Shown here: positions 8,888 through 12,555 of the stretch, piece by piece
Layout: every line of letters begins with the position of its first letter
Position numbering within the stretch: the first letter of the stretch is position 1
Assembly (NCBI GenBank): GCA_944325895.1
Contig: CALVCA010000001.1
Location: 1 to 64,000, forward strand
Direction: 5' to 3'
Source of the DNA: Candidatus Gastranaerophilales bacterium
GTDB taxonomy: Bacteria; Cyanobacteriota; Vampirovibrionia; Gastranaerophilales; Gastranaerophilaceae
DNA length: 64,000 nucleotides
The notes under the pieces: model-generated
What the model was told of the DNA's origin: nothing
The model's database searches: none
The model's input: only the letters and a program-made list of their open reading frames with translations
Position numbers and translations under genes: made by a program

Positions 8888-8905
8888 AACATCCGGGGGG
8901 ATGTT
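8888..8905 (-). other. Small perfect hairpin at the stop codon of the prepilin/S74 gene
   Basis: AACATCC and GGATGTT form a 7-bp stem with a four-base loop, beginning at the last base of the stop codon. It has no U-tract. It may protect the mRNA 3' end or aid the terminator beside it. Confidence 0.5.
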
Positions 8906-11415
8906 TATTTAATAAGCTTTTCCAATTTATCCATACGTGCTTTAAGCTCAGCATTTTCTCTTTTTAGCTGCTCAATCTCACTATCGTGAGTATTAACCCT
9001 ATTGACAAGCTCTTTAACATCTTCAACAACTTCTTGAACGAGTTTATCGAGCTGTTTTACGGCATTAATAACAGCATAGAACATATCTTCCATACGGATT
9101 CTCAAATACCCGTCGTCGCCTTTTGTGACAGCATTCGGGAAGATTTTTTCCAAATCCTGAGCCATTACACCGACTCTCGGAGTTTTATTTTCATCTTTTT
9201 TAAAGTTATAGTCAAACACTTTTAGTTTTCTGACTTCTTCTAATCCTGCTGTGTTTTCACCCTTGACGTTTTTAAGCCGCCGGTCAGAAGTTATATCATC
9301 AGTTGAAGGCATAGTTGCCATCCCACTGCCTCGAACAACAAAATTATTTGCTGCACCATATTCTAATTTATAAGTTGAGTATGCTCTGTTTGATAATGAT
9401 AAATAGATTGTCTTTTCGTCCTTTGGACCGACATATAAAGTATTATTTACTTGTAATACACCTCCAATTATCAAATTTCCTGGAATATATACATAGGAAT
9501 TTGAGTTACCTAAATATATAGCACTTTCATTGTTAGCAATATTCGGTTTATTATATCCAGGACCTGAGCTTTTACCAATGCAAATTACATTGGATTTGTC
9601 ATATACATTAGTACATGAATTAGAACCGATAGCAATATTATTAGAACCTTTTTCACTATTTTCTAATGCGGCAGTACCAATAGCAATATTATTATCACCA
9701 GTTGTATTAACTTTTAACGATTCATAGCCTAAACTTATATTCCCTTCCCCACTTGTAATATTCTTTGCAGCACTTTTCCCTACTGCAATATTTTTTGAAC
9801 CTGTAACACTATTAGTAGCACTTCCGGATAATGCACCACTTCCAACAGCTACATTATTATTTGCTCCACCTGCGAACATCAATGCATGATACCCAACAGC
9901 AACATTATCGTCACCTATTTTTTTACCGACAGAACCATCTTCTGGTGTTGTATATCTATCACCACCTGCCAAAGCGTTATTTCCTATCGCTGTATTGTAA
10001 TTTCCCGTTGAATTTTGAGCTAAAGCACCATAACCGAATGCATTATTACCTGAGCCTGATGTGTTTTTTATCAATGTTTGGTATCCTAAAGCTGTATTTC
10101 CTGAACCGGATGTATTATGTCTTAATGCATACGTACCTATACCTGTCAAACTCCCTGTATCTGTATTATTTAATAATGCTTGATAGCCTATACCTAAATT
10201 ATAACCAGCTGTATTATTTTGTAGTGCCTGATACCCTACACCTACATTACCTGCCCCTGTCTCATTATTATGTAATGCTTTGTATCCTACACCTATATTG
10301 CCTTTCCCAGTTAAATTATTATACATACTGCTTGGACCTATAGCTATATTATCTGATCCAGTAGTATTGAAATGTAAAGCTCCTAGTGGTGGGAGAAAAT
10401 CATTTATAGAACCAATACTGTTATAATTAGAACCAATCGCAACATTCCTTGAACCTGTGGTATTAAAATTAAGTGAATTTGAACCAATTGCTATATTAGC
10501 TATGCCAGATATATTCGAATTTAATGCAGGGGAACCTATTGCTATATTCAAAGATCCAGTTGTATTACTATTAAGGGAGCCGTTAATACTGTCGGTTAAA
10601 TTGCCCGAATATACTGTTGGGGGTAACTGTGAACCTATTGCAATATTCCTTGTCCCTGACGTATTACTTTTAAGCGTATTTGTACCAATCGCAATGTTTG
10701 AACTGCCACTAACATTAGAATGAAGTGATTTGGAACCAATAGCTGTATTTGAGCTGCTACTAGAGTTAGATGCAAGTGATAGGTAACCAATAGCTGTATT
10801 TAAGTTGCCACTAGTGTTATTTTGAAGTGCTTGACGACCAATAGCAGTATTAAAGCTGCCACTAGTGTTATCTTGAAGTGAAAAGGGACCAATAGCTGTA
10901 TTTGATTGACCGCTAGTGTTATTTTGTAAAGCAGTATACCCTATTGCTGTTATATTATGTCCTCCACCAGAATTAAGTGCTCCCATACCGATTACAGTTG
11001 AAAATGCCGGTAGGGTACCTGTTGTGTTACTATTAAGTGATATTGACTCTGCACTCATTCCTAACGCACCAACAGCATTACTCGGTCCTTTTAATAATAT
11101 ATGTCTTTGGCTTGTGGATGCCGTATTAATCAACAATCTGCTGTCGGGTTCTCCGCTTGCTTCTTCGTCCTGACCTATCATTGCGGTTTGTTTTCCTGCC
11201 AAACCAAAATATATATCCTGATTATTCGTTGAATATCTCCATGGAGATGATGTATCAACTAATCTTCTTTTTGTCATCAACGGTGCAAATGCCGCAAGTA
11301 TTATGGTTAATACCAGCATTACAACCATCATTTCAGCCAATGTAAAACCTTCAAAACTCCTGAAAAGCTTTAAGGAAGCCTTACTCGCCCCCCCCCCACG
11401 ATATGAAATCCGCAT
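8905..11415 (-). CDS. Prepilin-like N-terminus fused to YadA-like head repeats and a peptidase S74 chaperone
   Basis: 836 residues, start set by AGGAGG four nt upstream. Residues 1-23 form a basic leader ending in Gly23; FTLAE (24-28, Glu at +5) and about 20 hydrophobic residues follow, the type III signal of type IV pilins/pseudopilins cut by prepilin peptidase. From about residue 140 to 620 there are roughly 30 copies of a 17-residue unit NTAIGxxALxxNTSGxx, the left-handed beta-roll repeat of trimeric YadA-like adhesin heads. The C-terminus has SDRRLKN (Ser710-Asp711), VGVMAQDLEKIFP and a terminal coiled coil, the intramolecular chaperone of endosialidase/tail-spike proteins that self-cleaves at Ser-Asp after trimerisation. 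A G10 tract covers codons 6-10 (11388-11397). Probably a cell-surface, trimeric, pilus-associated adhesin. Confidence 0.9.
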   Translation of the reverse strand: MRISYRGGGASKASLKLFRSFEGFTLAEMMVVMLVLTIILAAFAPLMTKRRLVDTSSPWRYSTNNQDIYFGLAGKQTAMIGQDEEASGEPDSRLLINTASTSQRHILLKGPSNAVGALGMSAESISLNSNTTGTLPAFSTVIGMGALNSGGGHNITAIGYTALQNNTSGQSNTAIGPFSLQDNTSGSFNTAIGRQALQNNTSGNLNTAIGYLSLASNSSSSSNTAIGSKSLHSNVSGSSNIAIGTNTLKSNTSGTRNIAIGSQLPPTVYSGNLTDSINGSLNSNTTGSLNIAIGSPALNSNISGIANIAIGSNSLNFNTTGSRNVAIGSNYNSIGSINDFLPPLGALHFNTTGSDNIAIGPSSMYNNLTGKGNIGVGYKALHNNETGAGNVGVGYQALQNNTAGYNLGIGYQALLNNTDTGSLTGIGTYALRHNTSGSGNTALGYQTLIKNTSGSGNNAFGYGALAQNSTGNYNTAIGNNALAGGDRYTTPEDGSVGKKIGDDNVAVGYHALMFAGGANNNVAVGSGALSGSATNSVTGSKNIAVGKSAAKNITSGEGNISLGYESLKVNTTGDNNIAIGTAALENSEKGSNNIAIGSNSCTNVYDKSNVICIGKSSGPGYNKPNIANNESAIYLGNSNSYVYIPGNLIIGGVLQVNNTLYVGPKDEKTIYLSLSNRAYSTYKLEYGAANNFVVRGSGMATMPSTDDITSDRRLKNVKGENTAGLEEVRKLKVFDYNFKKDENKTPRVGVMAQDLEKIFPNAVTKGDDGYLRIRMEDMFYAVINAVKQLDKLVQEVVEDVKELVNRVNTHDSEIEQLKRENAELKARMDKLEKLIK
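9620..11030 (-). repeat. Degenerate 51-bp tandem coding repeats (NTAIG head repeats)
   Basis: Each 51-bp unit encodes 17 residues with the pattern NtAIGxxALxxNTSGxx. Copies at 10720-10930 are most alike at DNA level, suggesting recent duplication. Some units carry short inserts. Repeat number may vary between strains. Confidence 0.85.
11388..11397 (-). repeat. G10 homopolymer in codons 6-10 of the prepilin/S74 gene
   Basis: Ten C on the + strand are ten G in the coding strand, spanning the third base of the Arg6 codon's successor codons Gly7-Gly9 and the first base of Ala10. The gene is in frame as given. Gain or loss of one G would frameshift it before the pilin signal. Long G runs are rare in this AT-rich DNA. 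Confidence 0.85.
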
Positions 11416-11510
11416 TATGCCTCCTTTTCCTGCCTTTTTACTATTCTTTTTCTCTGCATTTTTATTAACTTACTTAATCATAGCATAAGTATTATTTTAT
11501 TGCAATAATT

Positions 11511-11531
11511 AAGCAGGCAATTTGCCTGCTT
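11511..11531 (-). terminator. Terminator after ferritin
   Basis: AAGCAGGCAA and TTGCCTGCTT form a nearly perfect 10-bp stem touching the ferritin stop codon region. The downstream minus-strand sequence is AT-rich (AATTATTG) with only a weak U-tract. Confidence 0.7.
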
Positions 11532-12039
11532 AATCGTATTGGTGTTTTTTATATTCTCGTTTTGACAGTTCTTTGTCTATTAAATATAATGAGGATTTTT
11601 CATCTCCAAACATTTTTAGTTTTGTAATTATATCGCTTGCATTGCTTTCTTCTTCAACCTGTTCTTTTATGTACCAGTTTATGAAATTCCTTGTTGCCAA
11701 ATCACACTCATCCAATGACATATTAGCTATTATATCTATTGATGAAGTAACATATTTTTCGTGTTCCAATATTCTTTCAAAAACATTCAAAGGCGATTTA
11801 AAATTTGTTTCAGGAACATTTATACTTTTAAAATCAATTTTAGCATTCCGATCAATTATGTAGTCAAAAATTATCATGCCATGATCCATTTCTTCCTGTG
11901 CCTGAACTTTTGTCCAATTAGCAAATCCGTGTAATCCCATTTCATCAAAATATGCAGACATTGCTAAATACAGGTACGCTGAATAGAATTCTTTATTAAT
12001 TTGTTCATTTAAAATTGATATTACTTTTTCGTTAATCAT
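11530..12039 (-). CDS. ftnA: Non-haem bacterial ferritin
   Basis: 169 residues; start at 12039, with GGAGG six nt upstream. The four-helix ferritin pattern is clear: NEQINKEFYSAYLYLAMSAYFDE carries the first ferroxidase Glu, AQEEMDHG the second Glu and the His, HEKYVTSSID the third helix, and KEQVEEES the remaining Glu residues. It oxidises and stores iron in a 24-subunit shell in the cytoplasm. Its start overlaps the last 8 nt of the desulfoferrodoxin gene, so the two are co-translated. Together they remove superoxide and the free iron that fuels Fenton chemistry. Confidence 0.92.
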   Translation of the reverse strand: MINEKVISILNEQINKEFYSAYLYLAMSAYFDEMGLHGFANWTKVQAQEEMDHGMIIFDYIIDRNAKIDFKSINVPETNFKSPLNVFERILEHEKYVTSSIDIIANMSLDECDLATRNFINWYIKEQVEEESNASDIITKLKMFGDEKSSLYLIDKELSKREYKKHQYD

Positions 12040-12421
12040 TTTTAGCCTCCCACAGACCGTGTATATTACAATATTCCAATGCACAAACCTCATCCGTTTC
12101 AGTTACAAATTCAGGCTCCATGCCGGGATACAGATAATGAAGTTTTACATCGTTTTTATCTTTTGAAATTGTTTCAATAAACATTATATAGTGTTCATCA
12201 ACCATAGGATGCGGTGTTGAACTTACTTTAATTACATTTTCACCTTTCTCATTTTTTTCAAATACCGGCAGATGCTTTTCTAAACCTTCAAAATCTTTGT
12301 CCTTTGGGGCTACTTTTTCCATCATCTCGCCGCAGCATACAAGTTCTCCTGCACCGGATAGCAAAACTTGCACCATGTTGCCGCATATGTTGCATCTGTA
12401 AAGCTCAAGTCGTTCAGTCAT
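12032..12421 (-). CDS. dfx: Desulfoferrodoxin (superoxide reductase, two-centre type)
   Basis: 129 residues from the ATG at 12421, with AAGGAG upstream; the longer frame to 12511 adds unrelated sequence. The N-terminal CNIC and CC (VCCGEMM) form the rubredoxin-like centre I. EKHLPVFE contains the catalytic Glu-Lys and a His ligand, TPHPMVDEHYI gives two more His, and CNIHGLW supplies the Cys and last His of centre II. It reduces superoxide to peroxide without producing oxygen, using rubredoxin-type donors. It is first in the operon with ferritin. Confidence 0.95.
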   Translation of the reverse strand: MTERLELYRCNICGNMVQVLLSGAGELVCCGEMMEKVAPKDKDFEGLEKHLPVFEKNEKGENVIKVSSTPHPMVDEHYIMFIETISKDKNDVKLHYLYPGMEPEFVTETDEVCALEYCNIHGLWEAKND

Positions 12422-12555
12422 ATTATTACTCCTTTCTTGTGTACAAGATATTATTAAATTTTGTTTTTCACATTGCACAAAAGGACAAATGAGTGTAATA
12501 ATATTTGGCAAAAAGTTATTAACAAACTTATTGTCTTAATCCATTTTTCCCTTCC

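Follow-up and report, generated by a model that had tools for sequence, protein, structure and literature searches.

A G10 tract in a prepilin-type adhesin gene of Candidatus Gastranaerophilales as a probable phase-variation switch, one of a large set of strand-polarised poly-G and poly-C tracts

The G10 tract at the start of the adhesin gene

The first 64,000 nucleotides of contig CALVCA010000001.1 (assembly GCA_944325895.1, Candidatus Gastranaerophilales bacterium), hereafter the window, contain a run of ten G (positions 11388-11397, minus strand; C10 on the plus strand) near the 5' end of a gene for an 836-residue, repeat-rich surface protein of prepilin type with a C-terminal S74 chaperone. 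The tract is very probably a contingency switch that works by slipped-strand phase variation, and one of a large set of poly-G and poly-C tracts in this family of the Gastranaerophilales. The evidence comprises the position of the tract, its excess over chance, its effect on the reading frame, length variation among paralogues and relatives with matching ON and OFF frames, OFF reading frames that remain intact, and a polarity of the tracts toward the leading strand.

The open reading frame (ORF; 8905-11415, minus strand) begins with an ATG (11415-11413) preceded, after a gap of 4 nt, by the Shine-Dalgarno sequence AGGAGG (11420-11425), a good ribosome site spanning 11413-11425 with its start codon. 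The encoded N-terminus reads MRISYR-GGG-ASKASLKLFRSFEG/FTLAEMMVVM (slash, expected cleavage), with the tract coding for the three glycines and one further base. It thus fills codons 7 to 9 and extends one base into codon 10. The first-pass annotation, which gave codons 6 to 10, was right in placing the run on the coding strand, in frame, between the start and the prepilin site. As assembled with G10, the gene is in frame with its prepilin motif (ON). A G9 version would encode MRISYRGGGRVRLP followed by a stop (14 residues) and a G11 version MRISYRGGGGE followed by a stop (11 residues), both ending ahead of the prepilin site, in agreement with the truncation before the signal that had been predicted, so that by its placement the gain or loss of one unit switches expression. 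No in-frame ATG, GTG or TTG lies between the tract and Phe24, which rules out translation from a downstream start in this gene, an objection foreseen in the same annotation. The improbability of the run, also asserted there, was confirmed: between 0.001 and 0.005 runs of at least ten G are expected in the window. Even G8 is expected only 0.19 times per 64 kb; the window holds no run of at least 8 besides G10, a G/C homopolymer beyond chance, and its second-longest G run is 6.

In the mechanism proposed here, slippage during replication would add or remove one G and shift the 820 downstream codons out of the frame of the ATG backed by its ribosome-binding site. The outcome would be either the full prepilin-anchored adhesin (tract length 10, or 7 or 13) or a peptide of 11 to 14 residues. 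At the modal length, most prepilin members of the set have an OFF frame in the assembled consensus, a single slip short of ON, and a population would hold many combinations of displayed subunits. Changes in tract length within a growing population, display of the product at the surface and selection for the resulting diversity are inferred parts of such a system.

Tract set, lengths and reading frames across the family

The genome of the window (G000; 1.69 Mb, 47 contigs, 99.8% complete, 33% GC) contains 35 tracts of at least nine G, against 0.1-0.7 expected, and 38 of at least eight. Examination of the tract surroundings placed 30 of them in the leaders of genes with a prepilin motif: the window adhesin, nine genes of a poly-G form and 20 of a poly-C form. 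In the poly-G form, the ribosome-binding site and ATG are followed by 5 to 20 codons, G9 to G11, mostly then CGACTTGCTCAAAGC, the leader and RRAAFTLAEVLITLGIIG; in the poly-C form, codons after the ATG lead to GCGGATAAGATAGTCG, C8 to C10 and a leader, with the prepilin motif as in the poly-G form. Runs of seven or eight G are nearly missing (a single G7 in 854 kb sampled), which sets the long tracts apart as a class of their own. In the family of the window genome the median is 29 tracts per genome (range 0-176; 75 genomes, 15 of them with more than 81), and in other families of the order it is 2 (range 0-6; 22 genomes). Most of the 80 best relatives of the window protein come from metagenome-assembled genomes (MAGs) of Candidatus Gastranaerophilales, several from gut samples; more than 40 of the 80 are tract-free and plainly in frame, as is a paralogue of the window gene on G000 contig C5, which is plainly ON.

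In G000 loci of the L104-L134 series (for example L112, L120 and L128) the leader between tract and motif consists of repeat DNA, translated as RHSERSEESLNEILRLKPQGATHVGMFDKNRR..., which is free of stops in the prepilin frame over 50-190 codons and sometimes includes a partial second copy of RRAAFTLAE; these leaders are apparently REP (repetitive extragenic palindromic)-like repeats recruited into coding sequence. Three near-identical loci (L114, L115 and L122) carry G9 after MKKNRAEKFLAEVTKTLTA..., followed by T rather than C and by short ORFs only, and are not prepilin genes.

Each tract gene was scored as ON or OFF by comparing, in the assembled consensus, the frame of its start codon, predicted and backed by a ribosome site, with that of its prepilin motif; one genome per species was used throughout, and two further genomes, G036 and G018, were represented by sampled stretches. 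The 107 genes scored in four sets (20 ON, 87 OFF) share one layout, in which an ATG with its ribosome site is separated by about 5-30 codons from the tract, and the prepilin motif comes after it. Among S74-type and genus relatives, 12 of 38 tracts were ON and 26 OFF. G000 had 27 OFF genes and three ON, namely the window gene (G10), L106 (G9) and L113, which has an extra T beside C9. All five ON genes of G036 had length 11, in G and C sense alike, and its 20 OFF genes comprised 19 of length 10 and one G11 gene with other flanks; in G018 all 14 genes were OFF and of length 10. Two pairs of paralogues, each from one MAG and sharing identical 30+50-nt flanks, have tracts one G apart and opposite states: L036 (G11, ON) and L042 (G10, OFF), and L048 (G10, ON) and L047 (G11, OFF). 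The nearest relative has two tract-bearing adhesin copies, both G9, one OFF (L001) and one ON (L002). Homologous tracts thus vary between 9 and 11 and occur in both ON and OFF frames, as expected of a poly-G contingency locus and not of a tract fixed at G10, which supports the phase-variation switch proposed in the first-pass annotation.

The tract could instead be a former switch or a neutral run, now frozen or decaying, with a static length and a constitutive window gene. Interrupted tracts in some relatives (GGGGAGGGGG in L022 and GGGGGAGGGG in L065), which would lock the OFF state, are of the kind this predicts, and a mismatch-repair system intact by sequence also fits it. The length differences between paralogues with identical flanks do not, and an unbroken G10 kept at its site in a 33% GC genome, alongside 35 others, would be eroded by substitutions unless maintained or regenerated; we therefore regard a frozen tract as highly improbable.

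The distribution of lengths is consistent with ongoing mutation. S74-type genes whose flanks make length 10 ON had lengths 9 (two), 10 (seven) and 11 (three), and those whose flanks make it OFF had lengths 9 (two), 10 (17) and 11 (two). The modal length is 10 irrespective of the state it confers, as predicted by a mutational equilibrium of tract length. In Campylobacter jejuni, an insertion bias in G8 and a deletion bias in tracts of at least G11 hold tracts at G9-G10 (PMC8355987). The OFF-frame ORFs stay open for about 150-400 codons, and this integrity over hundreds of codons suggests that OFF genes are probably in use. A start codon between tract and motif is missing in 28 of the 38 relatives' tracts and in 18 of the 25 G036 genes. 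In the long-leader genes of G000, the commonest candidate downstream start lies nine codons before the cleavage site, is an ATG in only 15 of 29 genes and has no ribosome site.

Several observations weigh against a switch. Most G000 prepilin leaders do contain some in-frame ATG or GTG between tract and motif; the lengths come from assembled consensus sequences, one per species, so that change within a population is inferred only; and mismatch-repair genes are present, unlike in Campylobacter. Some sets are also very uniform: all 14 genes of G018 have length 10, and 18 of the 20 G000 poly-C genes are OFF in a single phase. This is more uniform than free drift over three frames would give, which shared descent of paralogues together with a length equilibrium may explain. 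Regarding mismatch repair, mutS1 was found in 97 of 97 genomes and mutL above the cut-off in 92, both being present in G000, and the mutL-poor genomes G088, G090, G092 and G094 have 0-23 tracts. Loss of mismatch repair was accordingly discarded as the cause of the tracts.

This uniformity of phase is the best argument for programmed slippage, in which the tract would be fixed and the ribosome (by a -1 or +1 frameshift) or RNA polymerase would slip on it, with full-length protein made from OFF genes at a low, steady level, and it is the reason why our confidence in a DNA switch is not higher. One extra base would be needed to restore the frame in every one of the 14 G018 genes, in the 20 OFF genes of G036 without exception and in 18 of the 20 G000 poly-C genes. 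An identical one-base shift would, however, have to occur on glycine codons in the G sense and on proline codons in the C sense, read by different tRNAs, and in most G000 poly-G genes the shift would have to go in the other direction. Offsets of 0, +1 and -1 all occur among homologues, in place of the constant offset of a programmed frameshift; no shift at all is required by the window gene or by 12 of the 38 relatives' tract genes, tracts between identical flanks differ in DNA length, and in-frame homologues without a tract are common. Programmed slippage is accordingly a highly improbable account of the tracts, and we favor slippage at the DNA level.

Errors of assembly or sequencing could in principle falsify tract lengths and make the ON and OFF calls unreliable: the genomes are short-read MAGs, base 1 of G000 contig C11 lies inside a G9 run, and many relatives' tracts lie 30-400 bases from contig ends (G052, G078, G076 and G085). 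Dozens of independent genomes nevertheless have the tract at one and the same codon position, and the G036 assembly holds lengths of both 10 and 11 that agree with the frame design, which a blanket one-base error would not produce. An artefact, the caveat raised in the first-pass annotation, is thus extremely unlikely. Tracts at contig ends could mark repeats shared between paralogues or unresolved mixtures of lengths.

Strand polarity of the tracts

Nearly all G-runs of G000 lie on one strand of their contigs, with genes pointing both ways. In G036, 90 tracts showed three strand changes in 68 neighboring pairs (P ~2e-16 under random strands). In the near-closed G018, the 48 tracts followed by C showed one strand change in contig 1, between 35 and 212 kb, and one in contig 2, at 210-305 kb, with no other change within a contig, the two-switch pattern expected of one origin and one terminus. 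GC skew, with coding direction regressed out, agreed in sign with the tract strand in 43/43 stretches of three genomes, 17/17 in G000, 11/11 in G018 and 15/15 in G036 (t = 8.9, 8.9 and 9.8); the 17 stretches of G000 exclude L138 (contig C1, 84001-104000, to the right of the window), which contains 16 kb of N. By the usual rule, assumed here, the strand of positive GC skew is the leading strand. The strand of positive skew, and on this assumption the leading strand, always holds the G-run, whatever the direction of the gene.

Plain GC skew does not account for this polarity: within the same stretches, runs of at least nine G were distributed 23:0 between the strands, and runs of 3-6 about 1:1 (ratios of 1.33 to 0.82 for lengths 3-5). 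Gene direction does not account for it either, the poly-C genes facing the opposite way on the same contigs. Of 69 prepilin-gene tracts examined in the three genomes, 25 were poly-C, and every one of these lies in a gene that runs against the leading strand. With G always on the leading strand, genes that point the opposite way carry poly-C, read as proline. On balance we think that the tracts are coupled to replication, the long G-run occurring only on the leading strand, so that genes running with the fork would have poly-G (glycine) and genes running against it poly-C (proline). If so, the birth, stability or slip rate of a tract would depend on fork direction, and the orientation of a gene would decide which kind of switch it can have. 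The strand rule would allow the way in which replication direction shapes contingency loci to be tested directly by computation, a question that does not arise in Campylobacter.

Comparison with known systems and features of the encoded protein

Poly-G contingency loci are known from Campylobacter, where they have been surveyed with PhasomeIt (PMC6321876) and reviewed (PMC8355987). The tracts described here resemble them in that G/C tracts of 8-12, mostly 9-10, lie in surface-structure genes, toggle the frame by one base and number tens per genome. They differ in reaching up to 176 tracts (of at least nine G) per genome, in targeting mainly prepilin-type genes, in the presence of mutS1 and mutL, and in that the Campylobacter tract follows the gene whereas the Gastranaerophilales tract follows the leading strand, with poly-C in opposing genes. 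At up to 176 tracts, this may be the largest set of mononucleotide switches on record. In Neisseria and Moraxella, a 5' G tract in phase-variable pilus or adhesin genes (pilC, uspA1) switches surface display in a single gene or a few. A homopolymeric G tract placed 5' in a pilus or adhesin gene is common to both; in the Gastranaerophilales, members of the phylum Cyanobacteria, it is the prepilin leader of dozens of paralogues that is targeted. Literature searches that left subscription papers and preprints outside their reach returned no work joining Gastranaerophilales with phase variation (priority being accordingly uncertain), none joining phase variation, poly-G and the leading strand, and for Melainabacteria with phase variation a single paper, on flagellin diversity. 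Work on poly-G phase variation has concentrated on a few pathogens. Should our interpretation hold, an uncultured gut lineage of the Cyanobacteria phylum, its mismatch repair apparently intact, would use it more extensively to diversify prepilin-type surface proteins, and mixed tract lengths could be used to mark populations in gut metagenomes that already exist.

The window protein has an N_methyl prepilin cleavage and methylation motif at residues 22-42 (11290-11352, minus strand; PF07963, E = 1.4e-4, above the cut-off), in which EG/FTLAEMMVV predicts cleavage before Phe24; residues F24-M33 are unvarying in an alignment of 20 homologues. The Gly/Phe-Thr-x-x-Glu motif and the hydrophobic helix expected of a prepilin are thus both present, the helix spanning residues 26-43 in an AlphaFold2 model built with the 20 homologues. 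The alignment and the model delimit a repeat region of 17-residue NTAIGxxAL-type units at about residues 150-640 (9496-10968, minus strand), modelled as short strands at regular spacing. A Peptidase_S74 domain (chaperone of endosialidase; PF13884, E = 5.8e-13) near the C-terminus, at residues 710-764 (9124-9288, minus strand), is that of an S74-terminated fibre and is followed by a long helix or coiled coil at residues 775-835 (8911-9093, minus strand). Confidence in the model is low to middling (mean predicted local distance difference test score of 63 overall). Fibres of the S74-terminated type share the C-terminal chaperone followed by a helix and the long repeat shaft; the window protein differs from them in the prepilin N-terminus as anchor and in the absence of a useful match in the PDB, where no relative was found by sequence and no fold match worth reporting. 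A YadA-type trimeric autotransporter adhesin was rejected, no YadA anchor or head family being found in Pfam (E at most 1) and the C-terminus consisting of S74 and a helix. Judging from its domains, the protein would be a surface fibre or adhesin with a prepilin anchor. Upstream of the gene (window 11530-12511) lie ferritin-like and desulfoferrodoxin-like genes, identified by eye, of oxygen and iron defence.

A few tracts lie in other kinds of genes. In G036, a G10 (L167, contig C2:503) is in frame within a 509-codon gene with NTP_transferase and APH domains, a LicC/LicA-like fusion, and is possibly a switch of surface phosphocholine type; licA of Haemophilus is a phase-variable switch for surface phosphocholine. 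Another G036 tract, C10 (L174, C2:126676), is in frame in a long multi-pass membrane ORF, glycosyltransferase-like by eye. A 368-residue ORF of G000 carries a C9 (L119, contig C7:12202) near its 3' end, where slippage would alter only the C-terminus; the ORF is N-acetyl sugar amidotransferase-like by eye, with no Pfam match at 0.01. The longest run seen was one of 16 G, at position 391 of a relative's contig (L058).
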